From a virus: DNA of 64,000 nucleotides. The stretch spans positions 1 to 64,000 of the IMG/VR virus record IMGVR_UViG_3300023179_009503. One strand, written 5' to 3'. The notes below the pieces were generated by a model, which saw only the letters and a list, made by a program, of their open reading frames with translations, was not told the origin of the DNA and made no database searches. Shown here piece after piece: positions 3,679 through 54,977 of the stretch; within the stretch, counting starts at the first letter, position 1; each line of letters begins with the position of its first letter. Made by a program: the position numbers and the translations under genes.

Positions 3679-4083
3679 ATGAGTTATTTTGCTGACAGAT
3701 TCACTGCATTATTAGAAGCCGATCAAAATGAAGCACCGGTTGCTACACCTGAAACTGATAAAGACGCTATGGCAGCTTCACTTGATACTGCAAAGCCTGA
3801 AGACTTCGACGTTCAGGGTGGTCGCGAGCAAGTCCAAGACCATAGAAAAAATGAGCAGATTTCTAAGTTAAAAAATTGGATATCACAGATCGATCAATTT
3901 ATTGGCTTTTTAAATAGTACTGATGCATCTAGCATGCAGGTTCAATTGCATACAGCTGCTTGTGATTCTATTTTCGAAGATATAGCTAGAAGCGAAAAGA
4001 AAAAGATTGCTAGATTGGCCGCTGAACTAAGCTCATTGAGTGAATCGTTAAAAGGTTATTTAATTTCTGCTAACGACAGATAA
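3679..4083 (+). CDS. Putative capsid-targeted internal protein (134 aa)
   Basis: The N-terminus reads YFADRFTALLEAD: an amphipathic helix ending in LLE|A, which fits the (L/I)xE|(A/G) cleavage rule of T4-type prohead proteases such as gp21. An acidic Ala/Asp-rich segment and a helical C-terminal half follow. It has its own late promoter. In T4, internal proteins with such leaders are packed in the prohead and trimmed. Function after packaging unknown. The last 14 bases overlap the convergent primase gene. Confidence 0.65.
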   Translation: MSYFADRFTALLEADQNEAPVATPETDKDAMAASLDTAKPEDFDVQGGREQVQDHRKNEQISKLKNWISQIDQFIGFLNSTDASSMQVQLHTAACDSIFEDIARSEKKKIARLAAELSSLSESLKGYLISANDR

Positions 4084-13159: not shown

Positions 13160-14062
13160 ATGAACAAAGATACAAAGCTCATTTTCGAAGCGTATTTAAC
13201 TAACAAACCTAAGGTTTTAAAAGAAGCACCTATATATGCTGACGAACTAGGGTATACCGGCGATATTGAAAAGGCACCTGGCAAAGGCTATGGAATAGGT
13301 AAAACAGCTGCAAAAGAAGGTAAAACAAAAGCAGAAATTGCAAACCGTTTACTTCAAGCAATACAGACAAAGCTCTTTAAACCTGCAGTTCATACTATAG
13401 ATGGTAAAGAATATAAACTTTATTATCCGGGATCAAAAATGAAATTTAGAACAGATCTAGAAAATTTAATTAAAAACGAACTCAAGCTCGGTGGTACTGA
13501 AGCAAGATACACTGCTAGAATAGTTGACAATTTGTTAAACGTTTTAAGAGTAGATGTAGAAGGTGGTGCAGCGGCTAGCCCTGCGCAAGTCAAGCAAGCT
13601 GTTACCTCTGGAGTAGAGGGTAAGAAAGTAGTTGCTCCCGGCACACCTGGTACTTCACCTGCAACACCAGCTCCTACAACAAATACTTTTATAAAAAACG
13701 ATGTTAGGTTCATTAAAGAATGGATGCCAATCTTTAATGAATTGCCTGATGAAATAACTGTATCTGGTGGTGGCGATATTTATACTTCACCTGAGCTTAA
13801 AAAAGAAGTAGAAGAGGCTATTATTCGCGCTTATGATGAAAAGATGGCTAAAGACAGCGAAATGGTACAGGACTTTATTGATTCATTAAAATTTAAAAAT
13901 AGTTTTTCACCTTCATCTGAGAAAAAAGAAGGCGAGGGTACCGGTGAAGTGGAAACTGTAGAAGAATATCCTGAAGAAGACGAACCTACTTCAATTGCAA
14001 GAGAGCTAGGCTATAAAGGCGGAAGAAGCTTCGACGAATTTGACAAATATAGTACTAATTAA
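13160..14062 (+). CDS. Putative capsid-targeted internal protein (300 aa)
   Basis: The N-terminus holds two prohead-protease-like sites, LIFE|A (residues 7-10) and VLKE|A (19-22), suggesting stepwise trimming. The mature part contains a Gly/Lys/Ala-rich segment, a helical domain with GTEARYTARIVDNLLN, a Pro/Ala/Thr linker near residues 150-175, a second helical domain, and a Glu-rich tail. It is an isolated plus-strand late gene among minus-strand replication genes. A packaged virion protein is inferred; enzymatic function not recognised. Confidence 0.65.
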   Translation: MNKDTKLIFEAYLTNKPKVLKEAPIYADELGYTGDIEKAPGKGYGIGKTAAKEGKTKAEIANRLLQAIQTKLFKPAVHTIDGKEYKLYYPGSKMKFRTDLENLIKNELKLGGTEARYTARIVDNLLNVLRVDVEGGAAASPAQVKQAVTSGVEGKKVVAPGTPGTSPATPAPTTNTFIKNDVRFIKEWMPIFNELPDEITVSGGGDIYTSPELKKEVEEAIIRAYDEKMAKDSEMVQDFIDSLKFKNSFSPSSEKKEGEGTGEVETVEEYPEEDEPTSIARELGYKGGRSFDEFDKYSTN

Positions 14063-14080
14063 ATCTAATAAGCTAGATTT
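14061..14080. terminator. Weak AT-rich inverted repeat between convergent genes
   Basis: AAATCTA and TAGATTT form a 7-bp stem with a 6-nt loop between the 13160 gene and the QueC stop. There is no real T-run, so terminator function is doubtful. Confidence 0.3.
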
Positions 14081-14834
14081 ACTTAATCATCTTACACTTA
14101 TATTTTTCCCAAGGTATTGAGATTTTATAAGGTAACGGGTCTATATAACCGGAATCTATAAAACCTTTTATTCTCAAAGAGCACGCTGTACACTCTCCAC
14201 AAGCAATTTGCTCGCCTTCATAACATGTCCATGTTTCTGCAAAATTAACACCTAATTTTACGCCTAATTTTACTATATCAGCCTTAGATTTTTCAATAAG
14301 CGGTGCTTGTACTGTAATTCTGTTTCTACGATTAAGAGCTGTGAGTTTATTTATTTGAGTTAAAAATTCCTTACTCCCATCCCAATATCCTGCAACACTA
14401 TCAGCTTGTGCTGCACCGTGAAAAATAGTGGAAGCTCCTACATTTTCAGCTATAGCCAGGCTAATACCAAGCATCATTGTATTTCTAAATGGAACGTAAT
14501 TTACTGTCTGTGGATCTCCCATTACATCTTTTGCTTTAGCAACAGGAATTTTAGTATTGAGAAGGGAAGAAATAGAGCAAATATCCTTAAAAAACGGTAA
14601 TGTAATTATTTTATGTATAACGTTCTTTTCACCAATTTTATTTGCAACAGCAGCTAACTGGCGTGTTGCATACACTAATTCCCTGCTATGCTTTTGTCCA
14701 TAACTAAAGCTAACAGCTATAACTTTGTCGTATCTATCTGCAGCAAGATGTAACAATACTGAGCTATCCATCCCCCCGCTAATAGGAACAACTACTTTAC
14801 TCGACTGGCTCTTCTTGTTCTTGGTCGTTGGCAT
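14079..14834 (-). CDS. queC: 7-cyano-7-deazaguanine (preQ0) synthase QueC
   Basis: The 251-residue protein has the N-type ATP pyrophosphatase loop SGGMDSS (19-25), a SFSYGQKHSREL segment, and the C-terminal zinc site CYEG..IACGECTACSLR. QueC converts 7-carboxy-7-deazaguanine to preQ0 using ATP and ammonia. It overlaps UvsX by 38 bases and works with FolE (33709), QueD (36484), QueE (38074) and QueF (55480). The class II amidotransferase about 1 kb away could deliver ammonia or act later. Full length. Confidence 0.93.
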   Translation of the reverse strand: MPTTKNKKSQSSKVVVPISGGMDSSVLLHLAADRYDKVIAVSFSYGQKHSRELVYATRQLAAVANKIGEKNVIHKIITLPFFKDICSISSLLNTKIPVAKAKDVMGDPQTVNYVPFRNTMMLGISLAIAENVGASTIFHGAAQADSVAGYWDGSKEFLTQINKLTALNRRNRITVQAPLIEKSKADIVKLGVKLGVNFAETWTCYEGEQIACGECTACSLRIKGFIDSGYIDPLPYKISIPWEKYKCKMIK

Positions 14835-23856: not shown

Positions 23857-25267
23857 ATAAAAGAATTCTTTTATCCATATGCAGTGAGCTATATTTCAAG
23901 TCATCTGCAATATCGAATATTATAAGCTTATCCTTATCCTTATGCAAGCGAAGGCCTCTACCTATTGATTGTACAATTTTAATTTTAGCTTTGCCGCCGC
24001 ATGCAAAAATAATATAATGAAGGTTTTTAATATTAATACCGGTAGAAAATATTTTAGAAATAGCTACCACTACTACATCATTATACTCTTCCATTAGTCG
24101 TCGTATTTTTTCCCTTTCAGTTACCTCTACTTCACCGCGAATAAAATAACACTGTTTCTCCGGGCAAACAGTTTTTATTGTTTTATATAATGCTTCACCA
24201 TGCTCAATGTAGTCAACGAGAATAAGAGAATTGTTGTTTAATTTACAAGCTACTTTACCGATAACATTATTTCTAAACGTGTTGCGCATTAAAAAGCGCT
24301 GTTCTTCTCTATACAAATTAGAAGAAGATATTACTACATCTTTAAAAGGATCTTCTTTATAAATAATTTTTAAAATTTGTACTAGGACATTGCTAACAAA
24401 ATTTTCTAATCTCAATTCATAGCTATTTTTTTCATAAATGATCGGTCCAATCTTTCCTATAATATTCCATTGATCGAGTAAATTCTCGGGCATAGTGCCA
24501 GTAAACCCAAATCTTACTGGTGTTTTAATTCTTTTAATAATTTTATTAACTTCATTTCCTCTTCTAATTTTATGAACTTCGTCAACAATTAATACATCAA
24601 TATTTTCTAACCATGTCAAATCTGTATTTTTACTCTGAAGTATTCCTAAGTTTGCTATTGTAACATTCTTAATATTTTCATCTAAGGGACAATTACCTGT
24701 CCATTTACCAACGCTAAAAGATACATTGTAGTTTTTAAAATCGCTTGATGTTTGTTCAACAAGCCCTAAATCTGGAACAATATATAAGCATTTAAATTCA
24801 GAGCCGTATAAAAGAAATAACTTTGTAAGTAAAGATGCTGCTGTAAGGGTTTTACCTCCGGCAGTTGCTAGTACTATTGTCCCTCTACCTATAGCTAGAG
24901 CTTTCTTAACAATCTCTTCTTGGTAGTCCCTAAGAGGTAAAGAAAGCGGTACTATATCTGTATTAAATTGTGTATTTGTTTTCCATGATTGAGAAGGGCT
25001 AATGACATTAAAAAGAGATTCGTCTGTATTAACATTACCTACATATTGTTGACTGGTAAGATATTTTCTTATTTCATAATAAAGCCCAGGCTCAAATTTG
25101 CCTGCAGGTGTAATAGCGTAAGTGCGTTGCGGAAGAAATCTGCCATACTTTTTTCTCATAAAAAAAGCGGCCTCGTTTTTTACTGAAAAGTTTTCTCTTA
25201 TGTCTTCAACCATTTCGCCGGTAATGACACCCATTCCCTTTTTAGCATCTAAGGAAAAATTAATCAT
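23807..25267 (-). CDS. uvsW: Recombination helicase UvsW (SF2)
   Basis: The 486-residue SF2 helicase has Walker A ATAGGKT (near 136-142), a DEVH box in IDVLIVDEVHK, GFTGTMP (motif III) and the QSIGRGLRLHKDKD motif VI. The N-terminal 90 residues form the DNA-binding domain of UvsW. In T4 UvsW unwinds branched DNA and R-loops and switches replication initiation to the recombination mode. It overlaps UvsY by 4 bases. Confidence 0.9.
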   Translation of the reverse strand: MINFSLDAKKGMGVITGEMVEDIRENFSVKNEAAFFMRKKYGRFLPQRTYAITPAGKFEPGLYYEIRKYLTSQQYVGNVNTDESLFNVISPSQSWKTNTQFNTDIVPLSLPLRDYQEEIVKKALAIGRGTIVLATAGGKTLTAASLLTKLFLLYGSEFKCLYIVPDLGLVEQTSSDFKNYNVSFSVGKWTGNCPLDENIKNVTIANLGILQSKNTDLTWLENIDVLIVDEVHKIRRGNEVNKIIKRIKTPVRFGFTGTMPENLLDQWNIIGKIGPIIYEKNSYELRLENFVSNVLVQILKIIYKEDPFKDVVISSSNLYREEQRFLMRNTFRNNVIGKVACKLNNNSLILVDYIEHGEALYKTIKTVCPEKQCYFIRGEVEVTEREKIRRLMEEYNDVVVVAISKIFSTGINIKNLHYIIFACGGKAKIKIVQSIGRGLRLHKDKDKLIIFDIADDLKYSSLHMDKRILLYEKEQIKHTIKEIQEA

Positions 25268-25656
25268 GTCGTTTCTAGTTTGATAATATCAATTATATTC
25301 TTTAAATCGTAAGATGTAGAGCTTAAGGTCTTTTCTGACTTTTCTAATAATTCTACAACCAACTCTAGTTGTTTAATATTATTATCCATATCAACTAATT
25401 CGCTATGCTTTTCAACTGTACGCTCAGCGACTGGTAAATTAAGTTTTACAGGGCTTTGTTCTTGAAGCTTCTCTACTAAAGTTCTTTTAAGTAAATCACG
25501 CTTTTTACGTAAATCGTTAAGCTCTAACTTGTGACGTATACATCTGCCCGCCCACTTATGCTTTACACCAGGTAATCTAAGTTGATAGTCTTTTAGCTCT
25601 AACTCACTTATTTTTAAGTCGTTTTCTAGCTCTTTTATGTAATCTTCTAGTAGCAT
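25264..25656 (-). CDS. uvsY: Recombination mediator UvsY-like protein
   Basis: The ATG at 25656 gives a 130-residue protein beginning MLLEDYIKELENDL, like the start of T4 UvsY, with a KHKWAG segment and long helices. T4 UvsY is 137 residues and its gene neighbours uvsW, as here. It loads UvsX on gp32-covered ssDNA. An in-frame TTG-type extension upstream would cross the divergent promoter region and is less likely. Confidence 0.7.
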   Translation of the reverse strand: MLLEDYIKELENDLKISELELKDYQLRLPGVKHKWAGRCIRHKLELNDLRKKRDLLKRTLVEKLQEQSPVKLNLPVAERTVEKHSELVDMDNNIKQLELVVELLEKSEKTLSSTSYDLKNIIDIIKLETT

Positions 25657-25682
25657 TAACTTAAATAATAGTATATAGTTAT

Positions 25683-25946
25683 ATGAAATCAATAGGTCTA
25701 TTCGAGTCTAGATTTTTAAGCCTTTTAGAACAAAATGTAGCTGGAGGTGGGGGTAGCGTTTTTGGTGTAGGGCCTGGTGGCGCTCCTGGGCAATACGGTA
25801 ATCAATTCCCTTCTCAAAACGATACAGCCTATGCTCCAGGTGATGCTCGTATCCCAAAATTTTTAGGCTCAAAAAAGAAAAGAGGCAAAAAAGGTCCTTT
25901 TATACAGCGTAGGCCGCTTCCTGGATTAGAGCTAAAAAATAATTAA
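25683..25946 (+). CDS. Small virion-type protein repeating the major capsid N-arm
   Basis: The 87-residue protein starts with an amphipathic helix FESRFLSLLEQN ending in a prohead-protease-like LLE site, then a Gly-rich linker. Residues 38-59 match residues 81-102 of the major capsid protein gp23 (53454) at 20 of 22 positions (YGNQFPSQND, then AYAPGDAR). The Gly/Val/Phe spacing before the match is similar as well. The C-terminus is basic (KKKRGKKG). It could insert where the capsid N-arm binds. The DNA differs mostly at third codon positions, so the copy is old and maintained. Confidence 0.8.
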   Translation: MKSIGLFESRFLSLLEQNVAGGGGSVFGVGPGGAPGQYGNQFPSQNDTAYAPGDARIPKFLGSKKKRGKKGPFIQRRPLPGLELKNN

Positions 25947-25954
25947 GTAACTAC

Positions 25955-26380
25955 GTGGAACTAGGACACTGGATTTTAAGTGAAGGAATAACTATAGACG
26001 AAAATACCTTTGGGTTTATATATGAAATAACAAATACGGTTACAAATAAAAAGTATATTGGTAAAAAACAATGTAAATCAAAATTAAAAAGAAAACCATT
26101 AAAGGGTAAAAAAAATAAAAGAATTGAAATAAAAGAATCGGATTGGAGAGAATATACAAGTTCTTCGACAGAGTTAAATGAAGACATTGTTAAGTATGGC
26201 AAATCTAAATTTATTTTTAAAATACTTAAAACTTGCGGATCTAAGTGGGAATTAGCTTATAAAGAAATTTCAGAACAAATATCAAAACAAGTTCTACTTA
26301 GAGATGATTACTATAATGGAATTATAAACGTAAGAATTGGACGTCCTCCAAAAAATTATCTTGAAAAGATTTTAGGTTGA
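25955..26380 (+). CDS. GIY-YIG family endonuclease
   Basis: The N-terminal domain carries FGFIYEI (19-25) and KKYIGKKQ (32-39), the GIY and YIG elements of the fold, followed by a basic stretch and an EYTSSS segment. Such proteins in T4-like phages are free-standing homing endonucleases (Seg/Mob type). The start is GTG at 25955. It lies between the capsid-mimic gene and unknown genes, possibly a homing insertion. The Arg/Glu catalytic residues cannot be confirmed without alignment. Confidence 0.7.
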   Translation: MELGHWILSEGITIDENTFGFIYEITNTVTNKKYIGKKQCKSKLKRKPLKGKKNKRIEIKESDWREYTSSSTELNEDIVKYGKSKFIFKILKTCGSKWELAYKEISEQISKQVLLRDDYYNGIINVRIGRPPKNYLEKILG

Positions 26381-26971: not shown

Positions 26972-27418
26972 ATGACATTTACTGACAAGCTTAATGCATT
27001 GTTAAATACATTAACAGAAGCGCCTCAACAAGATACAAATACACAGGATGCTGCAGCTCCTGCTCCTGCTGAAGAGCAACCTACTCCTGCTCAGCAGCCC
27101 GAACAAGCAGCTATTCCCCCTGAAGGTTATGTAGATATGGTAAGGATGCTAGCTAAAGCATTAGTAATGAATATTCCTACTGGGACTATTGATTCGTTGT
27201 TCACAACCCCTATAACTAAAGAAAACGCAACTACTGTTAGAGAAGGGCTTCAAAGCGCAATTAGATCTAGTGAAACTTCAGAAGATAATGCAATAAGATT
27301 GGGTAACCCCGCGTTTAAAAAATTCGAACAGTCAATAAATGAAAATAACTTTATGGCAAAGTATAAAGAAATTTTAAATGCTATGAAGAAATTTAGCAAC
27401 GATCCTAAGCTGGGATGA
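26972..27418 (+). CDS. Putative capsid-targeted internal protein (148 aa)
   Basis: The start MTFTDKLNALLNTLTE|A is an amphipathic leader with an LTE|A cleavage-like site. It is followed by a Pro/Ala/Gln low-complexity segment (about residues 20-50) and a helical C-terminal domain. The ATG at 26972 is placed by the late promoter 5 nt before it. It precedes the nuclease-like gene by 1 nt. A packaged accessory protein is inferred. Confidence 0.68.
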   Translation: MTFTDKLNALLNTLTEAPQQDTNTQDAAAPAPAEEQPTPAQQPEQAAIPPEGYVDMVRMLAKALVMNIPTGTIDSLFTTPITKENATTVREGLQSAIRSSETSEDNAIRLGNPAFKKFEQSINENNFMAKYKEILNAMKKFSNDPKLG

Positions 27419-27419
27419 T

Positions 27420-29006
27420 ATGGCTATCAAAAAAAATAAAAAGCCTTACAGGCCTTTATCTGAAATTTATTTAAAAGAGTCGTTTGCAAGACCTGTACCT
27501 TTGCTTCCTAGACAAACAATTTTAGGGGAAGCAAATGGAATGGCTGAAATATTAATTCAAAAAGACACCGGTGAAGATTTACCAGTATATAAAGTTCCTA
27601 ATGAAGTGGCTGATGAGGTTCTTAAGCGAATTAAAAGAGCAGAACAACAGTTAGGAGATAAAGAAGGGTTTACTGTTGATAAAATTATAGCCCAATGCTT
27701 AGAGCTAGACGGTTGGGCTGGTGAAGGCAAAGGTCAAAACAGTTCAGTATTTAGAGAGGTCGTCAATGCATTTAATGCAGTTGAGCTCAACTATAAAGAA
27801 TTTAATAAGTTATTATCTTTGCAAACGGATAAAGATAATCCTGTAAGAACTGTTTTACTTAATGACTTAAAGCCACATAGTATGGTTGAACTTCTTTCAG
27901 ACAAATTTAAAGCTCTTTTTGCTGATCCTGCAGGAGCATTAACTGTACTGCAATCGCTTTGGAGATTAATACCTGATGGTGGTAAAAATGTAAATGTAGG
28001 TCCTGGAGAGCTAGCTTTAACATTAATTAGCGATGCAGTAAAAGGTAAAGAGGGAGACTTACAGTTTGATTTTGGATTAGTTGAAGTTAAAGGTAATAAC
28101 GCAGCTTTAGGTTCCGGTAAATATGCAGTGGTTAATACTTATGAAGAGCTTAATAGAATTATGGCTTCTAAAATAGGCGGTGCATCTGTACGGGCTATAA
28201 ATATCGATAGGCAAAAATCTATAATCTTAAATTTAATAGATGAACTTATAGCTCAATATGATAAATTTGTTGCAGACCCTGCATCGGTTAAAGCAACGCC
28301 TGCAGATACACAATTGCATGTAAAAACTAGAGAGTTGCTTAAAAATCTTAAAATAAAAGCAAGCCAAGCTAAGAGTTTTCAGGAACTTGTAAGTGATGTA
28401 CAAAACTCAGATCTTAAAGAAGTTAAAAAAACAAGAACAAAGACTCTTCCTGGAGAAAAGGCTATCCTTTTAAAAGAATTAGAATTATTAAGACGTGTAG
28501 AAGCAGGTGAGGTAACCTCTATAGCCGGGGGTGAGAAAAGTAGATTTAACCCCGCAGTAAATGCATTTTTTAGTAATCCTAACCTTTCCGAAGAAAACAA
28601 ATTGGAAGGAATAAAATTTATTGTTTCTGATGAAAAAACTAATAAAGATGAGGTAGCAGAAGTTGCAAAAGAGCTACTTTCATCTTACCCAGATTTATTG
28701 ACATGGAAAAGTGTAGGTAAGTCTTATGAGGGCGATTCAACTTCGGATTTAAATAGGTTTATAGGTGCAGTACACTTAGCTGAATATCAACAAGAAAAGA
28801 AGTTTAAATACATAATATTTTTTAATGCAGATAGAAAAGATATAAATAAATTGCCTACTAGAATAGTTGCGCTTAGTTTTGCTAACAGCTCATTTAAAGA
28901 AGATGTAAAGAGAGTATTCGAGTTTTTTAAAGATAAAGATATTAATGCTTCAGTAAAACTGGGTATCGATAATACTAGAGGGACCGTAAGGATTGCAATA
29001 TCATGA
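27420..29006 (+). CDS. Putative packaged PD-(D/E)XK-like nuclease (528 aa)
   Basis: Residues 194-226 carry a nuclease-fold signature: GPGE (E197), GD (D213) and VEVKG (E222, K224), with the D-x8-ExK spacing of PD-(D/E)XK enzymes. Near the N-terminus ILGE|ANG (34-40) is a possible prohead-protease site after a basic leader. The C-terminal half is helical with a final mixed domain. It overlaps the ligase-like gene as ATGA. If packaged, it could act on DNA at infection, for example against host or competing DNA. Function inferred from motif only. Confidence 0.62.
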   Translation: MAIKKNKKPYRPLSEIYLKESFARPVPLLPRQTILGEANGMAEILIQKDTGEDLPVYKVPNEVADEVLKRIKRAEQQLGDKEGFTVDKIIAQCLELDGWAGEGKGQNSSVFREVVNAFNAVELNYKEFNKLLSLQTDKDNPVRTVLLNDLKPHSMVELLSDKFKALFADPAGALTVLQSLWRLIPDGGKNVNVGPGELALTLISDAVKGKEGDLQFDFGLVEVKGNNAALGSGKYAVVNTYEELNRIMASKIGGASVRAINIDRQKSIILNLIDELIAQYDKFVADPASVKATPADTQLHVKTRELLKNLKIKASQAKSFQELVSDVQNSDLKEVKKTRTKTLPGEKAILLKELELLRRVEAGEVTSIAGGEKSRFNPAVNAFFSNPNLSEENKLEGIKFIVSDEKTNKDEVAEVAKELLSSYPDLLTWKSVGKSYEGDSTSDLNRFIGAVHLAEYQQEKKFKYIIFFNADRKDINKLPTRIVALSFANSSFKEDVKRVFEFFKDKDINASVKLGIDNTRGTVRIAIS

Positions 29007-30214
29007 TATCTTTTAAGCAATTTGTTCTTGAAGGAGGTGCAGCTGGTCATATGGCTCATCCGTTTGATTTGCCTAATGTAAATTCTGGCAAAGATCTTAT
29101 TAATTTTTTTAATAAAGCTATTACCAGCTTAACAAAAAAGCCTGCTTCTGTAAAAATTGACGGTGTAAACACTTCTATTAAGCTAATTACGAATAGTGAG
29201 GGTAAAAAAGAGTTTGCTATGGATAGAGGCTCAAATAAACCTGAAGATATAGAAGGTGTTACAATAGCAAGATTAAGTCAAAGATTTCCTGAAGGGCATG
29301 GTATGTTAGAAACCGGTAAAACTGTTTTATCTATCTTCAATTCAGCTCTACCAAATATAGAGAAAGATTTAAAGAAATTAAAAATGTGGGATAATCCAAA
29401 TATTCTTTTTAATATGGAATTTGTTAAAGGCTCTACTAATGTTATAGGCTATGCAACTAACTTTGTAGCAATTCATGGGTTAAACGAAATTATTAAAGTC
29501 AAAAGTCCTGTTAGAGGCAGTGTGAGTAGAGCTTCAAGAGAAATAACTTATGATAAAAAAGCATTGCAGAGTTTAATAGAAAAAGTTAATCCTATTGCTA
29601 GAAAGCAAGGTTTTGATGTGGAGCATGAATTTACTATAAACTTAAAAGAAAAAGTCAATTTTAATAATGCGCTTGATTCCGATTTTACAGTAAATTACGA
29701 TTCAAAAAACGCGATTAAACAGCCCTTAAAAAATTGGCTTGCAAAAGCAAAGAACCCTAGAGCAGAAAAAATAAAATTAACTTCCGGAAAAACTATAAGC
29801 GCTATGAGCTTAGAAAACTTTAAAAATATATCTAGCGGTGTTCCTATGGATCATTATATCGGTAATAACAAAAAAGATATTGAAAAGGCTGTAAACGGTG
29901 CAGTATTTTATCAAGCAACAATTTTACTTGGTGATGCAGTAAAAAATGCTGCATCTTCTGCTTTAGGTTCTTTATCAGCACAAGAAGGTATAGTAATAAG
30001 AGATCCTTCAATTTCTAGCGCACCGGTTAAAATTACTGGAAGTTTTATAACGGGTAAAGAAGCTAGCAAATTCAGAAAGCAAGAAAATGAAGAGGGTATA
30101 AAAGGTGTTATATCTAATACCAATACTGTTTTAAACAAAACTAATTATCAAACTAACCCACCTTTTGGTAAGGAAGGTGCTAGATTAGTACAAACACCTG
30201 GAGTACAACTATGA
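29003..30214 (+). CDS. Putative packaged DNA/RNA ligase-like nucleotidyltransferase (403 aa)
   Basis: The leader ISFKQFVLE|GG closely resembles T4 internal-protein targeting peptides (such as MKTYQEFIAE). The body has covalent nucleotidyltransferase motifs: motif I KIDG (51-54, adenylated Lys51), motif III LFNMEF (135-140), motif IV EGIVIRD (328-334) and motif V VKITG (342-346). These mark ATP-dependent ligases or capping-type enzymes. No clear OB domain follows motif V. It overlaps both neighbours by 4 bases. Substrate (DNA, RNA or other) is unknown. Confidence 0.72.
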   Translation: MISFKQFVLEGGAAGHMAHPFDLPNVNSGKDLINFFNKAITSLTKKPASVKIDGVNTSIKLITNSEGKKEFAMDRGSNKPEDIEGVTIARLSQRFPEGHGMLETGKTVLSIFNSALPNIEKDLKKLKMWDNPNILFNMEFVKGSTNVIGYATNFVAIHGLNEIIKVKSPVRGSVSRASREITYDKKALQSLIEKVNPIARKQGFDVEHEFTINLKEKVNFNNALDSDFTVNYDSKNAIKQPLKNWLAKAKNPRAEKIKLTSGKTISAMSLENFKNISSGVPMDHYIGNNKKDIEKAVNGAVFYQATILLGDAVKNAASSALGSLSAQEGIVIRDPSISSAPVKITGSFITGKEASKFRKQENEEGIKGVISNTNTVLNKTNYQTNPPFGKEGARLVQTPGVQL

Positions 30215-30867
30215 AATTTGACCAATTAGTAAATGAAATATTAATGCCTCAAAAGAATAATCTTATTGTTATTTTTCCAGGTAGGTTTCAGCCTTTTCAT
30301 TTGGGGCATAAACGCTTTTATGATTTAGCAAAAAAGAAATTTCCGGGTGCTGATTTTTACATAGCTAGCTCTGATATACCGGAAAAAGCTGCAACTAAAG
30401 AGCCTGGTCGCTATCCTTTTAATTTTGCAGAAAAAAAAGCTATTATGATAGCTGCAGGCATACCTGAAAAAGAAATTGTTCAGGTCAAACAACCTTACAA
30501 ACCTATAGAAATTTTAAAAGACTATGATCAAAATTTTGCAAAAGTAATTTATATAGTTGGTGAAAAAGATATGAAAAAGGACCCTAGATTTGCATTTGGC
30601 ATGACTAAAAAAGGAACCCCTACTTATTTTCAGCCTTTTAAAAGCTTAAACGAGTTACAGCCTTTTAAAGAAGACGGTGGCCATGGTTATATATACTCTC
30701 CTGGAACTATAGAATTTAATGTTAACGGAAAAAATATTACTAGTGCATCTGAATTAAGAGAGCTATATAAAAATTCTAACGAGCAAAGTAAAAAAGAAAT
30801 TATTACACAAATTCTAGGTAAATTCGATACAAAGATTTATAATCTATTTAACGCAAAAATTATTTAA
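30211..30867 (+). CDS. Nucleotidyltransferase (NMNAT/cytidylyltransferase-like), capsid-targeted
   Basis: The protein has FPGRFQPFHLGH (22-33), the HxGH-type site of the nucleotidylyltransferase alpha/beta phosphodiesterase family, and an ITSASELR segment resembling the ISxTxxR motif near the C-terminus. Residues 1-9 (MKFDQLVNE) look like a short targeting leader. Relatives make NAD, FAD, CoA precursors or CDP-alcohols. Coupling to the ligase-like gene suggests a joint role, perhaps NAD metabolism or nucleotide transfer inside the newly infected cell. Confidence 0.75.
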   Translation: MKFDQLVNEILMPQKNNLIVIFPGRFQPFHLGHKRFYDLAKKKFPGADFYIASSDIPEKAATKEPGRYPFNFAEKKAIMIAAGIPEKEIVQVKQPYKPIEILKDYDQNFAKVIYIVGEKDMKKDPRFAFGMTKKGTPTYFQPFKSLNELQPFKEDGGHGYIYSPGTIEFNVNGKNITSASELRELYKNSNEQSKKEIITQILGKFDTKIYNLFNAKII

Positions 30868-31502
30868 TTTTTCTTCTTATTTTCAAGAAGTATTATAGTC
30901 TCAAGTAAAACTTTCTCTAAATTTTCAACGCTTTCTCTTTTTAGTACTTTGCTTATCTGACTTAAAAGGGCATCGCCACCTTTAGATATAGCAGAAAATA
31001 GTTCTTCTTCATTATTTTCTTCTAAATTACCGCATGCACCGTGCATAGGGTTTTTAGCAGCTTCATAATCTTCATAACCGAAAACTGATTCAAGTTGATC
31101 ATGTGCATTAGTTATCTTGCTTAGTACCCAAGCTTCAACATTATCTTTCCCATTAAGAATATCGTGTAGCATTGCGGATAACTTAAAAATTCTAAACAAA
31201 AGTTGTCGCGACATTTGTCCATTACTATCATAAGTCGAAGGATCATACCCTTCACAATCCTCGCTTTTACTTTGATTACCTTTACATTCTGGGCAATTAT
31301 TGCAAGTACAGCCTTGAGCTGCAGCATGGCAATGCTCTTCTTCTTCGCAGCCACATTCTCTTTTTACAGGAAAATTTACCTTAGTAATTTTTGATGGTGA
31401 AGGTGTTACAGACTGATCACCTAAAGGACCAAGCCCAACGCTTTCAGTAACTATCTTTTTTACATAAAGATCGTTTAAAGCATCAAAGTCGCGTGCAAAC
31501 AT
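30864..31502 (-). CDS. Cys-rich putative capsid-targeted protein (212 aa)
   Basis: The N-terminus ends with KIVTES, a possible cleavage site after a leader of about 20 residues. Residues 50-75 hold a dense Cys/His cluster (CGCEEEEHCH and CTCNNCPEC) likely to bind metal. The rest is helical, with a HAHDQLESVFG-like helical bundle. It has its own late promoter, divergent from the gene at 31535. No family was recognised. Confidence 0.62.
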   Translation of the reverse strand: MFARDFDALNDLYVKKIVTESVGLGPLGDQSVTPSPSKITKVNFPVKRECGCEEEEHCHAAAQGCTCNNCPECKGNQSKSEDCEGYDPSTYDSNGQMSRQLLFRIFKLSAMLHDILNGKDNVEAWVLSKITNAHDQLESVFGYEDYEAAKNPMHGACGNLEENNEEELFSAISKGGDALLSQISKVLKRESVENLEKVLLETIILLENKKKN

Positions 31503-31534: not shown

Positions 31535-31822
31535 ATGTTATTCGAAAAAGCTTTTCTACATGCTCTTGAACAAGATATAATTGAAGAAAAAAAAGGTGCC
31601 AGGTGTACTAAAGTTACAGGTCAGCAATCTTCTACTAGATCTGATAAAAAATATATGCGCTGTACACGTGTAGATGGTAAGTTGAAAAGAATACATTATG
31701 GCGATCCAAATTTACGTATAAAAAAATCTAACCCCAAGAAACGTAAATCATTTAGAGCGCGTCATAAATGCTCGTCCGCAAAACCAGGTACTGCAAAATA
31801 TTATAGTTGTAAGAACTGGTAA
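31535..31822 (+). CDS. Small basic Cys-containing protein (95 aa)
   Basis: The late promoter fixes the ATG at 31535. The N-terminus FEKAFLHALEQD looks like a capsid-targeting leader. The rest has MRCTRVDGKLKRIHYGDPN and NPKKRKSFRARHKCSSAK, with a final YYSCKNW. I recall this pattern as a conserved small protein of unknown role in phages and some algal viruses. Its high positive charge suits binding DNA inside the capsid. Confidence 0.72.
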   Translation: MLFEKAFLHALEQDIIEEKKGARCTKVTGQQSSTRSDKKYMRCTRVDGKLKRIHYGDPNLRIKKSNPKKRKSFRARHKCSSAKPGTAKYYSCKNW

Positions 31823-33235: not shown

Positions 33236-33712
33236 ATGGCTGATGTAACAATATCTGGATTAGATAATCTATCACCTGCAGGGTCTAGTTTTCTACCTAT
33301 TTCAACCGGTTCTTTAACAGGTAAAACAACTATAGCATCGCTGCCAGTAGATTATAATAGCATTACGAATAAGCCAAATATTCCTGTAGTAAATAATTCA
33401 CAGCTCGCAAAAGCATGGGTATGTTTTAACGGTCAGGGCTCTAACAGTACTAATCAGCTTATAAAAGCATCTTTTAATGTTACTAGTGTTTATAAAAACG
33501 GGAGTGGTAGTTATACTGTTAACTTCACCCCAGGTACATTCGCTAACGGTAATATAGTTGTTGTGGGCACTTTTATGCACGTTCCTAATGTATCGTGGGG
33601 AGGAGCAGCAGTTCCTAACGCAGAACCAACAGCAAGCTCAGCCACTATTTTTACCGGTGACCATGGTAAAGGTCTTGTTAATTCTGCACACGTGTCGGTA
33701 GTCTTTTTTTAA
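33236..33712 (+). CDS. Short fibre-like structural protein (158 aa)
   Basis: The N-terminus MADVTISGL with FLPIS matches the 57-residue protein at 944. From residue 58 the sequence AKAWVCFNGQG with ASFNVTSVYKNGSGSYTVNF follows the pattern of the C-terminal domain of many phage tail fibres (a beta-rich tip). It has its own late promoter. It is likely a small virion appendage or head fibre, with the N-terminal module as anchor. Confidence 0.72.
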   Translation: MADVTISGLDNLSPAGSSFLPISTGSLTGKTTIASLPVDYNSITNKPNIPVVNNSQLAKAWVCFNGQGSNSTNQLIKASFNVTSVYKNGSGSYTVNFTPGTFANGNIVVVGTFMHVPNVSWGGAAVPNAEPTASSATIFTGDHGKGLVNSAHVSVVFF

Positions 33713-34362
33713 ATAAGTTTTCTATTTTGCGCAAATTCAATGAACTTATAAAACTCGTTTCTAGAATTATCTTTATCATCCAAAAATGCTCCGGACATTC
33801 TCGCTGTACGCATTGTTGAATCATGTCTAATACCGCGGTTTGAGCAGCAAGTGTGCGCGGCTTCAATCATTACAGCTACACCCTTATTCTTTAAGCATAC
33901 CTCATCAATATACTTGTGTACTTGCATTGTAAGGTTCTCTTGAACCTGGGGGCGGCGAGCAAACCAATCAACAATTCTATTAAGCTTACTCAAGCCAATA
34001 ACCTTACCATCTTTAGAAGGAATATAAGCAACATGCGCAAATCCCATAAACGGGGCATGATGATGCGAACAAAGTGATGTTAATTTAATATTAGTTTGTG
34101 CTACAATACCGTCATACTTATCTACGTTATCAAAAGCTGTAACCTTAGGTGGGTTACTATAACAACCCCAAGCAAAATCTTCAACAAATGCCTTAGCGAC
34201 TCTATGCGGGGTATTATCGCTGTTAGGATCATTTCTCCAATCATATCCTAAAGCATCCATATAAGCTTCATATGCTTTGGCTGCTCTTTCTATTATTTGC
34301 TCTCTTTCTTCTTGAGTATGAGGATGATTATGATTCGCAAAAGCTAATTTCTTCTTAAACAT
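33709..34362 (-). CDS. folE: GTP cyclohydrolase I FolE
   Basis: The 217-residue enzyme has the zinc site LCSHHHAPF, the GLSKLNRIVDWFARRPQVQE segment and AHTCCSNRGIRHD, all signatures of FolE. It converts GTP to dihydroneopterin triphosphate, the first step to preQ0. It feeds QueD (36484). ATG at 34362, TATAAT 7 nt upstream. The end overlaps the convergent fibre gene by 4 bases. Confidence 0.95.
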   Translation of the reverse strand: MFKKKLAFANHNHPHTQEEREQIIERAAKAYEAYMDALGYDWRNDPNSDNTPHRVAKAFVEDFAWGCYSNPPKVTAFDNVDKYDGIVAQTNIKLTSLCSHHHAPFMGFAHVAYIPSKDGKVIGLSKLNRIVDWFARRPQVQENLTMQVHKYIDEVCLKNKGVAVMIEAAHTCCSNRGIRHDSTMRTARMSGAFLDDKDNSRNEFYKFIEFAQNRKLI

Positions 34363-34418: not shown

Positions 34419-34853
34419 ATGAAGTATAATGACATAATTCTTGAAAGCTTAAAGAAAACAGCTTTAAAGCGTATTAGGATTAAGGTTGATCCTGCGTGTG
34501 TCAGTGCTGAAGCAGATTTTTCTAATATTGATGGTTATGAGGGGTATGTTTTAGAAGAAGGAAAAAGCCATTTAAAGATTTTAGTAATTACTCCTGAGCT
34601 TGGAATACAAGATGTACCTATTGAATTTATTGAGGCTATAGCAGATGATGCAGACTATGATTCTTTTTGTAGCTTAAAAGAATATATTGTTAAAACACTC
34701 TTTAAGGATGGTGTAGTAGAAAACGATCCTATTATAATTCAAATATCTAACAGCAATTGTTTAAACGATATTGAAAGAATAATTAATCAAAAAGGATATA
34801 CAGGAGATAAACTAGCAGATCTGTATAAAAACTTTATCACCAATGATGAATAA
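34419..34853 (+). CDS. Putative capsid-targeted protein (144 aa)
   Basis: The start MKYNDIILES has an ILE|S site 9 residues in, similar to the other leaders. The remainder is an acidic alpha/beta domain (VDPACVSAEADFSNIDGYEGYVLEEG). A TAAATA lies 13 nt before the ATG, so this transcript would have a short leader. It overlaps the following gene by 11 bases. Unknown function. Confidence 0.6.
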   Translation: MKYNDIILESLKKTALKRIRIKVDPACVSAEADFSNIDGYEGYVLEEGKSHLKILVITPELGIQDVPIEFIEAIADDADYDSFCSLKEYIVKTLFKDGVVENDPIIIQISNSNCLNDIERIINQKGYTGDKLADLYKNFITNDE

Positions 34854-36483: not shown

Positions 36484-37158
36484 ATGATATACGAGAGTAC
36501 AAAGATTATTGAGTTAGGTTCTTGCGCATTTAGACAATGGAAAGCTAATCATAGCCATTGCAAGTTTATTCATGGTTATAGATTACAAGCTAAATTTTGG
36601 TTTGGATGTACAAATTTAGATGATAAAAATTGGGTAGTCGATTTCGGTGGTTTAGATGATTTAAAAAAAATACTACAAAAACAATTTGATCATACATTAT
36701 GTGTAGCTGCAGATGATCCTTTACTAGAAGGATTTAAAACTTTACATACTGCAGGTGGCTGTGATTTGAGAATAATGGAAGGCGGTGTTGGTATAGAAAA
36801 GACCGCTGAATGGTGTTTTAACACAGCTAATGCTTATTGTCAAACCATAACAAGTGGAAGATGTTGGGTTAATAAAGTAGAAGTTTGGGAACATGAAAAA
36901 AACTCTGCAATTGTTTCTTTTCAAAACTCACAAAACTCTGAATTACCTCCTCCTGTACACGCAGCTTTTCAACGCCCGGTAAATCCAATTCGAGAAACTA
37001 TTAATGAAATAGAAAAAGAAACAGGCGTACCTATTTCGAACGTTTTAAAACAGATTCCTGTAAGCAATACTCAAGCTGGTACAAGACCTGCGCCATTAAA
37101 GAACCCTAAATCCGAAGGATATTCGAATTTATTCGGCGGTACAAGCTGGGGTTCATGA
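36484..37158 (+). CDS. queD: 6-carboxytetrahydropterin synthase-like protein QueD
   Basis: The N-terminal 130 residues follow the QueD/PTPS fold: CAFRQWKANHSHCKFIHGY with the Cys/His set near the active site, QFDHTLC (the DH pair), and a C-terminal RCWVNKVEVWEHEKN segment with the Glu that binds the pterin. The usual HGH zinc motif reads HGY here. A 70-residue Pro/Asn/Gln-rich extension follows, ending GGTSWGS. It converts dihydroneopterin triphosphate to 6-carboxy-tetrahydropterin. A TATAAT about 30 nt upstream may drive it. Confidence 0.82.
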   Translation: MIYESTKIIELGSCAFRQWKANHSHCKFIHGYRLQAKFWFGCTNLDDKNWVVDFGGLDDLKKILQKQFDHTLCVAADDPLLEGFKTLHTAGGCDLRIMEGGVGIEKTAEWCFNTANAYCQTITSGRCWVNKVEVWEHEKNSAIVSFQNSQNSELPPPVHAAFQRPVNPIRETINEIEKETGVPISNVLKQIPVSNTQAGTRPAPLKNPKSEGYSNLFGGTSWGS

Positions 37159-38073: not shown

Positions 38074-38817
38074 ATGAGTGATAAAACTATTTTTCTAAGT
38101 GACGATAAGATATTTTATACAATTGAGGGGGAAGGGGAGTATGTAGGTAAACCATCTGTTTTTATGAGACTTTCAATGTGTAATTTAACATGTAAGGGGT
38201 TTGCTTCAGCAGATTCGCCTAACGGTTGTGATAGTTTTATTAGCTGGTCTGTAAAAAATAAACTTTCATTTGATGAAGTTTTTGAATTTATGGCGCAACA
38301 TAGCTATAACTGCCATCTTAAAGACGGAGCTATATGGAAAATAACTGGTGGTGAACCTCTTATACAGCAAAAAAATCTTCTTGACTTAGTTGATCAATTT
38401 ATTTTTAGATTTAATTTTCTTCCTAAGATTGACTTTGAAACAAACGCAACAATTTTACCAGATCAACAATGGGTTGATTGGAAAGCTACATTCACTACAT
38501 CACCAAAACTTAGCAATAACGGTGACCCTGAAGAAAAGAGGTACAAGCCGGCAGTTTTAAAATGGCATGTTGATCATGGTTCAAGTTTTAAATTTGTTAT
38601 AAATGAAGAAAAAGATCTTGACGAAGTATATGAAAAGTATATTTGTCATAATAATATCTTAGTACCAAAAGATAGAGTATGGTTAATGCCGTGTTGCGGA
38701 AGTCGCTCCGAACATGTTGAAAAAGCAGCTATGGTTGCAGAGCTCTGTAAAAAACATCACTTTAATTTTAGTCCACGCTTACAGCTTGTTATTTGGGATA
38801 AAGCACTTAAAGTATAA
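38074..38817 (+). CDS. queE: 7-carboxy-7-deazaguanine synthase QueE (radical SAM)
   Basis: The 247-residue protein has the QueE start YTIEGEGEYVGKPSVFMRLSMCNLTC, the SAM-binding KITGGEPL segment (near 98-105) and the ETNAT motif. The cluster-binding Cys residues are C36, C40 and C52, a CX3CX11C arrangement instead of the common CX3CX2C, similar to cluster-loop insertions reported in some QueE proteins. It forms the deazaguanine ring from carboxytetrahydropterin. The kinase gene follows after 1 nt. Confidence 0.9.
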   Translation: MSDKTIFLSDDKIFYTIEGEGEYVGKPSVFMRLSMCNLTCKGFASADSPNGCDSFISWSVKNKLSFDEVFEFMAQHSYNCHLKDGAIWKITGGEPLIQQKNLLDLVDQFIFRFNFLPKIDFETNATILPDQQWVDWKATFTTSPKLSNNGDPEEKRYKPAVLKWHVDHGSSFKFVINEEKDLDEVYEKYICHNNILVPKDRVWLMPCCGSRSEHVEKAAMVAELCKKHHFNFSPRLQLVIWDKALKV

Positions 38818-51597: not shown

Positions 51598-52269
51598 ATG
51601 GCGCTTCGTCTACTAGTCGAAACACCTGCTTCTGAAGAGCAGTTTGAATATATTTTAGAGGAAAAAAACCCTAAAGAGCCCGCAAAACTCTATATTCAAG
51701 GTCCTTACATGGTTTGTAATGAAGTAAATAAGAACCAGCGTATTTACGAGCGTGATGATATGCGTCGTGAAGTTGAACGCTATATAAAAGAAATGGTTTC
51801 AACAAACAGAGCGATGGGCGAGCTTAATCATCCCACATCCGCAGAAGTTAATCTAGAGAGAGCCTGCCATCTTGTTACAAATTTAAAATTTGAAGGAAAC
51901 CAGGTAGTAGGAAGATCACAAGTACTTTCAACACCGATGGGTCAGATTGTACGTAATCTTATCAATGATGGTGTAAAGGTAGGAATGTCTAGCCGCGCAC
52001 TTGGAAAATTAAATGAAGAAACAAATGGTATTAATCGTGTAACAGATATGAGATTAATTGCTGTTGATTGTGTAGCTGATCCGTCATGCCCTAAAGCATT
52101 TGTAAATGGAATATTAGAAAGCAAGCAATTTATTTTAAATACTAAAGGTGAACTAGAAGAAGTTTATGATGCTTTCGAAAAATCTATTAATAATTTACCT
52201 CGAAAAGACGTACAAGCTTATTTAAAAGAGCAAATTTTGACGTTTTTTAAATTTTTAAGAACTACTTAA
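51598..52269 (+). CDS. gp21: Prohead maturation protease gp21
   Basis: The 223-residue protein carries ELNHP (H78), a LSTPMGQIVRNLINDGVKVGMSSRALG segment with the active Ser (131-132) and VDCVADPS, matching the herpes/T4-type prohead serine protease. It would cut gp22, gp23 and leader peptides at (L/I)xE sites, as proposed for the leaders in this window. Length equals T4 gp21. Confidence 0.92.
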   Translation: MALRLLVETPASEEQFEYILEEKNPKEPAKLYIQGPYMVCNEVNKNQRIYERDDMRREVERYIKEMVSTNRAMGELNHPTSAEVNLERACHLVTNLKFEGNQVVGRSQVLSTPMGQIVRNLINDGVKVGMSSRALGKLNEETNGINRVTDMRLIAVDCVADPSCPKAFVNGILESKQFILNTKGELEEVYDAFEKSINNLPRKDVQAYLKEQILTFFKFLRTT

Positions 52270-53453: not shown

Positions 53454-54977
53454 ATGGCTAAACAAATTCGTCCTACACAGGCTTACATTGATGAGTCACG
53501 CGCTAAGGTACTTCTCGAGAAGTGGGGTCCAGTTCTGGATTACTCTTCCGATAACGTCCGCGCTATCGAAGACGATCACACACGCTTAAACACCGCTATC
53601 CTTTTGGAAAACCAAGAGAAGTGGTGCTTTGAGGCTAGCAACACAGTCGGTGGAAACACTGGCGTATTCGGCGGCGCTATTAATAATGGCGCTTACGGTA
53701 ACCAGTTCCCTTCACAGAATGATAATGCTTACGCCCCAGGCGATGCGCGTCTACCGAAGATCCTCATCCCGATGATTCGCCGTACGTTCCCTGAGTTGAT
53801 CACTAACGAAATCGTTGGTGTTCAGCCCATGAGCGGTCCAGTAGGTCTTGCTTTTGCCCTCCGTTATAAGTACGAACCCACCAGCTTAGGTTACAATCCC
53901 GATGGCAAGATCGACGCAAGCAACTCTACAACAAAGTATGCTAGCTCGTTCTTACAGTCATTGTCGACAAACCCTGAGCTAGGGTATCAGTTCCTCGCTT
54001 CCGGCTTTACCGGAACGCAGCAGCCACAATTGTCGGGTAATTCCGACTTCACAATGCTAACACAAGATCAGGGTGTTGCTCAGCTACTCGGCCAGTTCGA
54101 GTTGAATGCAAACATTCCTCAGGTCGTTGTAAGCTTTGAGAAGACAGCAGTCGAGGCCGGCACACGCCGTCTCGCCGCTCGCTGGTCAGTTGAGCTCGAG
54201 CAGGATCTTAAGAACATGAACGGTATCGATATCGATACTGAGCTCACAAACGCTATGTCGTATGAGCTACAGGCCGAAATCGACCGTGAAATGATCATTC
54301 GCATGATCCAGACAGCACTCAATGCTGGCTACGGCACAGGTTATTCAATCTGGTCGCCCGTATCAGCAGACGGTCGCTGGCTCGTTGAACGTAATCGTGA
54401 CTTCTATCAGAGACTAATCGTCGAAGCTAATCGTATTGCAGTACGTAATCGCCGTGGTTCTGCCAACTTCGTTGTTGCAACACCTCGCGTTTGCGCTATC
54501 CTAGAAATGCTCCCTGAATTCCAGTGGGTACCAGTACAGGGTAATGTTAATACACAGCCCGTCGGTGTTGCAAAAGTAGGTTCGCTGGGTGGCAGGTTCA
54601 ACGTTTACCGTGATACTCGTACAGAAGCTCAGGCTGAAGCTTATAATACTGGTGGCATCCCTCCTGGTAATTTCCAGGGTCAGGGCTGGCCAACAGCTTA
54701 TGGCACCCAGAACTTCTCGCGTCAAGTACGCCTCGAGTATGCACTCCTTGGTTACAAGGGCCCGGAATTCTACGACACTGGTATCATCTATTGTCCGTAC
54801 ATCCCGGTAATGGTTCAGAGAACGATTGGTCCTAATGATTTTGCTCCTCGCGTTGGCTTACTAACACGTTATGGTGTAGTAGACAACATCTTTGGTGCTA
54901 ATCTTTACTACCACGTCATTATTCTCAAGAACCTCGGTACTCCGTTTGTTCCTGGAACACAGTCGGTCTACTTCTAA
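53454..54977 (+). CDS. gp23: Major capsid protein gp23
   Basis: The 507-residue HK97-fold protein has the gp23 block LIPMIRRTFPELITNEIVGVQPMSGPVGLAFALRYKY (residues 104-140), SFEKTAVEAGTRRLAARWSVELEQDLKNMNGID and the LTRYGVV end. Prohead cleavage is predicted after E60 (CFE|ASN), the same place as T4. The codon use is markedly GC-richer than nearby genes, typical for a very highly expressed gene. Part of its N-arm is repeated in the small protein at 25683. A strong terminator follows. Confidence 0.97.
   Translation: MAKQIRPTQAYIDESRAKVLLEKWGPVLDYSSDNVRAIEDDHTRLNTAILLENQEKWCFEASNTVGGNTGVFGGAINNGAYGNQFPSQNDNAYAPGDARLPKILIPMIRRTFPELITNEIVGVQPMSGPVGLAFALRYKYEPTSLGYNPDGKIDASNSTTKYASSFLQSLSTNPELGYQFLASGFTGTQQPQLSGNSDFTMLTQDQGVAQLLGQFELNANIPQVVVSFEKTAVEAGTRRLAARWSVELEQDLKNMNGIDIDTELTNAMSYELQAEIDREMIIRMIQTALNAGYGTGYSIWSPVSADGRWLVERNRDFYQRLIVEANRIAVRNRRGSANFVVATPRVCAILEMLPEFQWVPVQGNVNTQPVGVAKVGSLGGRFNVYRDTRTEAQAEAYNTGGIPPGNFQGQGWPTAYGTQNFSRQVRLEYALLGYKGPEFYDTGIIYCPYIPVMVQRTIGPNDFAPRVGLLTRYGVVDNIFGANLYYHVIILKNLGTPFVPGTQSVYF

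Follow-up and report, generated by a model that had tools for sequence, protein, structure and literature searches.

A small protein of Far-T4 phages repeating the mature N-terminus of gp23, with counterparts in cyanophages and T4

The small protein and the part of gp23 that it repeats

Why should a phage encode, apart from its major capsid protein, a separate small protein repeating the mature N-terminus of that same capsid protein? This question is raised by an 87-residue open reading frame (ORF) in the 64,000 nt stretch of Far-T4 phage DNA analysed here (the window). The initial annotation had pointed to a 20/22 match between the ORF product, MKSIGLFESRFLSLLEQNVAGGGGSVFGVGPGGAPGQYGNQFPSQNDTAYAPGDARIPKFLGSKKKRGKKGPFIQRRPLPGLELKNN, and gp23, and the comparison bore this out: residues 38-59 are identical to gp23 residues 81-102 at 20 of the 22 positions, and of the 20 matching codons 13 are silently different and 7 identical. 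The local alignment score against gp23 was 138 and none of 5000 shuffles exceeded 62, which rules out chance similarity, and a search of the full 74.6 kb record yielded the ORF itself and gp23 as the only matches (7.5e-14). The features concerned are listed below.

25264..25692, minus strand: uvsY, divergent neighbour of the small ORF (phrog_231), in synteny in distant relatives
25662..25667, plus strand: TAAATA late-promoter-like box, 21 nt ahead of the ATG of the small ORF
25683..25946, plus strand: N-fist-copy ORF, 87 aa, ATG start
25683..25730, plus strand: leader of 16 residues, MKSIGLFESRFLSLLE, whose LxE end is a putative gp21-type cleavage site
25731..25865, plus strand: residues 17-61, copying the N-terminus of mature gp23 (approximately T4 gp23* 66-94)
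25794..25859, plus strand: YGNQFPSQNDTAYAPGDARIPK, residues 38-59, forming the core of the copy, 20/22 identical to gp23 81-102
25866..25943, plus strand: GSKKKRGKKGPFIQRRPLPGLELKNN, the basic tail (net charge +8) that stands where gp23 has its capsid body, with a conserved K-rich stretch and QRR
25955..26380, plus strand: GIY-YIG (SegE-like) gene directly downstream (PF19835, 5.4e-29), in synteny in distant relatives
51598..52269, plus strand: gp21-like prohead protease, presumed to process the small protein (phrog_207, 1.5e-57)
53454..54977, plus strand: gp23, major capsid protein (phrog_138, 5.6e-80; Pfam PF07068)
53631..53765, plus strand: copied segment, gp23 residues 60-104 (N-fist and start of the N-arm), from the alignment to T4 gp23

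The alignment spans residues 18 to 61 of the small protein and is nearly in register with the presumed cut sites (marked by a slash), LLE/QNVAGG...VFG in the small protein and CFE/ASNTVGG...VFG in gp23, so that the Gly/Val/Phe spacing originally noted after the LLE site is real. The similarity begins at the presumed gp21 cut and ends where the capsid body starts (gp23 60-104); in the small protein a Lys/Arg-rich tail, which the initial annotation did not point out, directly follows in place of that body.

A profile of 23 Far-T4 gp23 sequences was aligned to T4 gp23 (PDB 5VF3, 6UZC), the anchor being the conserved Far-T4 IPMIRR region, which pairs with T4 MGMVRR; by this pairing, the copied residues 60-104 correspond approximately to T4 residues 66-94. 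The T4 N-fist comprises residues 66-91 (PMC7136217). What had been described as a copy of the N-arm is indeed a gp23 N-terminal segment, but mostly the N-fist and not the whole arm. AlphaFold2 applied to gp23 with 23 relatives gave a pLDDT of 31, and structural mapping was therefore limited to the alignment with T4 gp23. In the T4 prohead interior the N-terminal regions are disordered, ordered N-arms and N-fists appearing at expansion, and one N-fist touches four subunits, two of its own capsomer and two of the neighbouring capsomer (PMC9958956); the five portal-facing N-fists are disordered (PMC7136217).

No Pfam or PHROG family matched the small protein, and searching PDB with a small-protein profile retrieved nothing useful. 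It lacks an HK97-fold capsid domain and falls outside the gp23/gp24 type, being restricted to the N-terminal 45 residues, whereas the T4 vertex protein gp24, likewise a second gp23-derived head protein, has the full capsid fold. A gp24 vertex paralogue was sought for this Far-T4 clade in the seven records where gp23 was found, and none of them yielded a second gp23/gp24-type capsid gene. The cement protein Soc resembles the small protein in the proposed holding of neighbouring capsid subunits; Soc is a folded protein bound to the outer capsid surface, and we know of no copying of a capsid peptide by it. The sequence patterns of T4-type internal proteins, a leader with a gp21-type site (LLE) and a basic mature protein, are both present, and T4 IPI, IPII and IPIII share with the small protein a short propeptide with such a site, a basic composition and presumed packaging. 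To our knowledge, no capsid-protein arm has been described in these three proteins, which by their descriptions are set apart from the small protein. By leader and basic character alone, the latter would count only as a newly found internal protein of the T4 type, and a leader is missing from several cyanophage members. Judged by its predicted sequence, it carries both a segment of its own gp23 and a Lys/Arg stretch, the sequence features of the class proposed here, capsid N-fist copy proteins.

The sequence TTAAATAATAGTATA or a close variant is located upstream of the small gene in most relatives; in the window, TAAATA stands close upstream of many structural genes and is nearly absent ahead of the replication genes examined. 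A predicted late expression of the small protein is supported by these motifs. TAAATA often lies exactly 11 nt ahead of the start codon (622, 3679, 31502 on the minus strand, 32254, 33236, 51598 and 55110), and nearly leaderless late mRNAs would therefore result. Short, amphipathic-looking leaders with an LxE-like site were seen in many other window proteins (3679-4083, 13160-14062, 26975-27418, 27420-29006, 29003-30214, 30864-31502, 31538-31822 and 34419-34853), suggesting that these may form a large head-packaged set; a cytidylyltransferase-like protein is encoded among them at 30211-30867. Four ORFs resembling, by eye, QueC, FolE, QueD and QueE (14079-14834, 33709-34362, 36484-37158 and 38074-38817) suggest a 7-deazaguanine pathway.

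Conservation and history among Far-T4 phages

Searches of IMG/VR for relatives of the small protein gave 22 matches, then 206 and 153, of which the best 80 of 206 and the best 80 of 153 were used, some matches being gp23 itself. More than 40 distinct related small ORFs were recovered from uncultured Far-T4 phages, sharing the hydrophobic-x-E leader, NVAGG, GNQFPSQND.AYAPGDAR.P..LG, the K-rich stretch and QRR, with tail net charges of +8 to +13. The hydrophobic-x-E site precedes the copy in 46 of the 49 small ORFs collected, which is consistent with the cleavable leader proposed at the outset. The position divergent to uvsY and ahead of a GIY-YIG-type gene was also found in two distant relatives, G036 and G037.

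Codon identity at shared residues was 0.37 for small-gp23 pairs of the same phage and 0.40 for cross pairs, compared with 0.56 between small genes and 0.58 between gp23 genes. Since the silent sites of own pairs are as different as those of cross pairs while the peptide is kept, the selection on the peptide claimed by the initial annotation holds, and the small gene is supported as an old gp23 duplication in which the peptide was kept while silent sites diverged; recent gene conversion between the two genes is ruled out by the same identities. Conserved and variable positions of the copy core largely coincide between the two families (correlation of column conservation, rho = 0.46; permutation p = 0.012), a value somewhat biased by search patterns that favour conserved stretches.

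The own-versus-cross test performed on 15 same-contig Far-T4 pairs, uncorrected for kinship, was not significant (p = 0.06), leaving strong covariation within Far-T4 unsupported; one G/N column, picked post hoc, gave p = 0.023. In one relative (G012), both gp23 (L024) and the small protein (L014) have changed from YGNQFPSQND.AYAPGD to TG..FPG...YAPND. The syntenic gene of G037 (L169:2472-2729) is devoid of the copied motif and that of G036 (L168:2689-2973) shows it only in eroded form, the gp23 of each retaining it. Both syntenic members retain the leader and the basic tail and represent useful natural controls.

Such tolerance of erosion or loss would suit a partial gp23 duplication that is selfish or neutral and has no role. 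The retention of the peptide while silent sites changed, the more than 40 Far-T4 proteins, the up to 1437 records matched by the T4 counterpart gp61.1 and the design common to three lineages, both described below, make a role-less duplication highly improbable.

Counterparts in cyanophages and T4

A tblastn search of cultured phages with the small protein gave no match at E up to 1, and counterparts surfaced there only when the other lineage's own N-fist served as the query. With the gp23 N-fist of P-HM2, a second site was detected in the P-HM2 genome, PHM2_171, which reads MMGAGGITNVGPINTQTTGKGAIMGFDPILGMSRRRTKKRKK..., the gp23 of this phage reading LTE/APTNVGPINTQTTSAGAVDGFDPILISLIRR; the switch from copy to basic stretch falls at the position where it occurs in the window protein (..IL/FL followed by G and K/R). 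The S-CRM01 N-fist retrieved small ORFs in S-CRM01, S-SCSM1, SynMITS9220M01 and S-SSM6a, and further cyanophage members were found in S-CAM7, P-RSM4, S-CAM9, ACG-2014a/d, Syn30, S-RIM8 and S-H34; with the queries used, a second N-fist copy was absent from S-PM2, HTVC008M, S-BM3, S-SKS1 and S-CREM1. The cyanophage copies lie just upstream of gp61/nrdA wherever the wider context was seen, and start almost at the N-fist or with a leader that has an E shortly ahead of it; several have no leader and several carry long extra C-terminal regions. These 'gp190'-type proteins (PHROG 696, named 'major head protein'; SSCSM1_97; PHM2_171 in PHROG 4187) thus resemble the window protein in joining their own N-fist to a Lys/Arg stretch, and differ from it in the frequent lack of a leader, the long domains of some, the gp61/nrdA context and the absence of sequence similarity.

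For 13 cyanophage pairs the own score was 86 versus 68 for cross pairs (permutation p = 5e-5, uncorrected for kinship), although most copies resemble one another more than they do the gp23 of their own phage, P-HM2 and ACG-2014d being the exceptions. The covariation that had been proposed as a check is hence seen between lineages and in the 13 cyanophages, but weakly within Far-T4 (p = 0.06). Conservation in relatives was likewise found, the peptide being kept and matching the gp23 of its own lineage, and a cyanophage counterpart is labelled as a virion protein; the outcome named at the outset as refuting the interpretation did not occur. This counterpart is SSCSM1_97, annotated 'virion protein' in S-SCSM1, for which 45 virion proteins are reported from mass spectrometry, 13 of unknown function (PMC9602691). 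PRSM4_198 bears no S-SM1-homologue note, of the kind that P-HM2 records give to structural proteins, which counts against a head protein.

The virion label also bears on whether the protein is a prohead core or assembly factor, whose copy would bind the partner of the gp23 N-terminus and regulate assembly or expansion without remaining at a capsid site. The gp23 N-terminal regions face the prohead interior (PMC9958956), the leader would put the protein in the core and the basic tail could bind it; nevertheless, the copied segment begins after the cleavage site and so belongs to the part retained in the mature shell, and this, with the label of the S-SCSM1 counterpart, argues that such a factor is unlikely.

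In the T4 genome, the T4 N-fist matched gp23 and, as the sole other hit (E = 3e-4), gp61.1 (NP_049649.1, PHROG 1823, hypothetical), with the sequence MKTFKEFIKEDMVAGDSGGNPENISIGTTSGAVVNKGPEQIPKKKKEESKEKEE. The alignment with T4 gp23 is ungapped over 31 residues (score 71, shuffle maximum 43) and pairs the E of IKE with the E of LTE, both at presumed cut sites. This 54-residue protein has a ten-residue leader resembling a capsid targeting sequence (CTS), and a Lys stretch directly after the copy. A T4 CTS has to be roughly ten residues long, with processing at positions 8 and 10 (PMC9026906), and the predicted gp61.1 leader fits this description. Retained in related T-even phages, gp61.1 matched up to 1437 phage records when used as query, some of which may be gp23 itself; a few are named 'major capsid domain-containing protein', and automated pipelines have therefore already noticed the similarity. 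In two T4-like relatives from IMG/VR (L349, positions 1198-1662, and L350), a gp61.1-type segment forms the C-terminus of a 155-aa protein (phrog_2086), with LFE ahead of it.

Like the window protein, gp61.1 has a leader ending in E, its own gp23 N-fist in cut-site register and a Lys stretch, whereas its copy is unrelated in sequence, its gene adjoins gene 61 and not uvsY, and its tail is net neutral overall; no TAAATA box was found just upstream of gene 61.1. It is a counterpart of the window protein and not an explanation of it. The gp23 N-fists of Far-T4 phages, cyanophages and T4 are mutually unrelated in sequence, and the copy design is common to all three: mean local scores of copies against the gp23 arm of their own lineage were 110 (Far-T4), 69 (cyanophages) and 71 (T-even), while all cross-lineage means were 31 or less and the highest single cross score was 48. 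Either an ancestral protein has tracked gp23 in each lineage or N-fist copies have originated repeatedly.

The protein could alternatively be an internal, injected one, with the N-fist copy as an anchor to the shell or core and with tail or C-terminal domains acting on DNA or in the host. The leader and basic composition resembling T4 internal proteins, the long C-terminal regions of several cyanophage members and the many other leader-bearing genes near the window ORF are in keeping with this; the shortest members (64 aa in S-CRM01, 54 aa in T4), however, consist almost entirely of the N-fist and a charged tail and leave no room for an enzyme. We regard injection as rather improbable. Capsid proteins are known triggers of defence, as when the Gol peptide of T4 gp23 activates Lit, and a soluble mimic could compete with the capsid protein as a decoy for such a host sensor of its N-terminal region. 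The Gol region presumably starts about where the N-fist copy ends, the leader, the basic tail and the virion label suit a head protein better, and conservation across very different hosts would be unexpected for a host-specific decoy, to which we assign very little probability.

A candidate head protein with a free N-fist

The explanation we favour, with a probability of about 0.55, is a late head protein whose free-standing N-fist docks at capsid N-fist sites and whose basic tail reaches DNA or core. Its footing is the demonstrated identity and register with gp23, the conservation, the tail, the late-type box and the recurrence in three lineages. The leader would carry the protein into the prohead alongside other core proteins, where gp21 would remove it after LxE, and the mature product would, like mature gp23, start with an N-fist, followed by a basic tail where gp23 has its body. 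At expansion, the free N-fist may dock on the N-fist sites of capsid subunits, most plausibly donor-less ones, for instance at the pentons or surrounding the portal vertex, the basic tail contacting packaged DNA or core. The occupation of a capsid groove first suggested, as cement, plug or assembly timer, is likewise a candidate role. In favour of a head protein, the copy starts at the presumed cleavage site and stops where the capsid body begins, and no gp24 was found in the seven Far-T4 records; the head location of N-fist copies is supported indirectly by the label of the S-SCSM1 counterpart. Against it count the motif loss in G037 and erosion in G036, the Far-T4 result (p = 0.06), and the neutral tail and missing TAAATA of T4. 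N-fists finish on the outer surface, and a DNA-facing tail would therefore need a path through the shell.

More broadly, and only as a tentative proposal that we think rather improbable, T4-like phages may encode a trans-acting N-arm that tracks their own capsid arm and completes donor-less N-fist contacts, foremost at the portal vertex, the basic tail tying shell to DNA; gp61.1 would be a hidden example.

The initial remark that no equivalent had been described stands for the papers searched, in which neither gp61.1 as an N-fist copy nor any such separate protein is described, but not for the databases, which hold unrecognised equivalents in gp61.1 and PHROG 696. Because no described protein of that kind was found, a separate protein repeating the mature N-terminus of its own capsid protein is rated a categorically new arrangement. 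The similarity was already visible in automated annotation; the new part lies in identifying the class and what it probably means.

The T4 head is among the best-studied virus shells, and gp61.1 repeats the locking arm of its capsid. N-fist-copy proteins, present in at least three distant T4-like groups including T4, may represent an overlooked head component, and PHROGs 696 and 1823, loosely labelled or of unknown function, would merge into one functional class. The reading is directly testable in T4 with existing genetics and cryo-EM. If the proteins bind the capsid, they would add a component to head assembly, bear on the partner-less sites at vertices and portal, and offer a naturally occurring peptide handle with which T4 heads could be loaded or stabilised.
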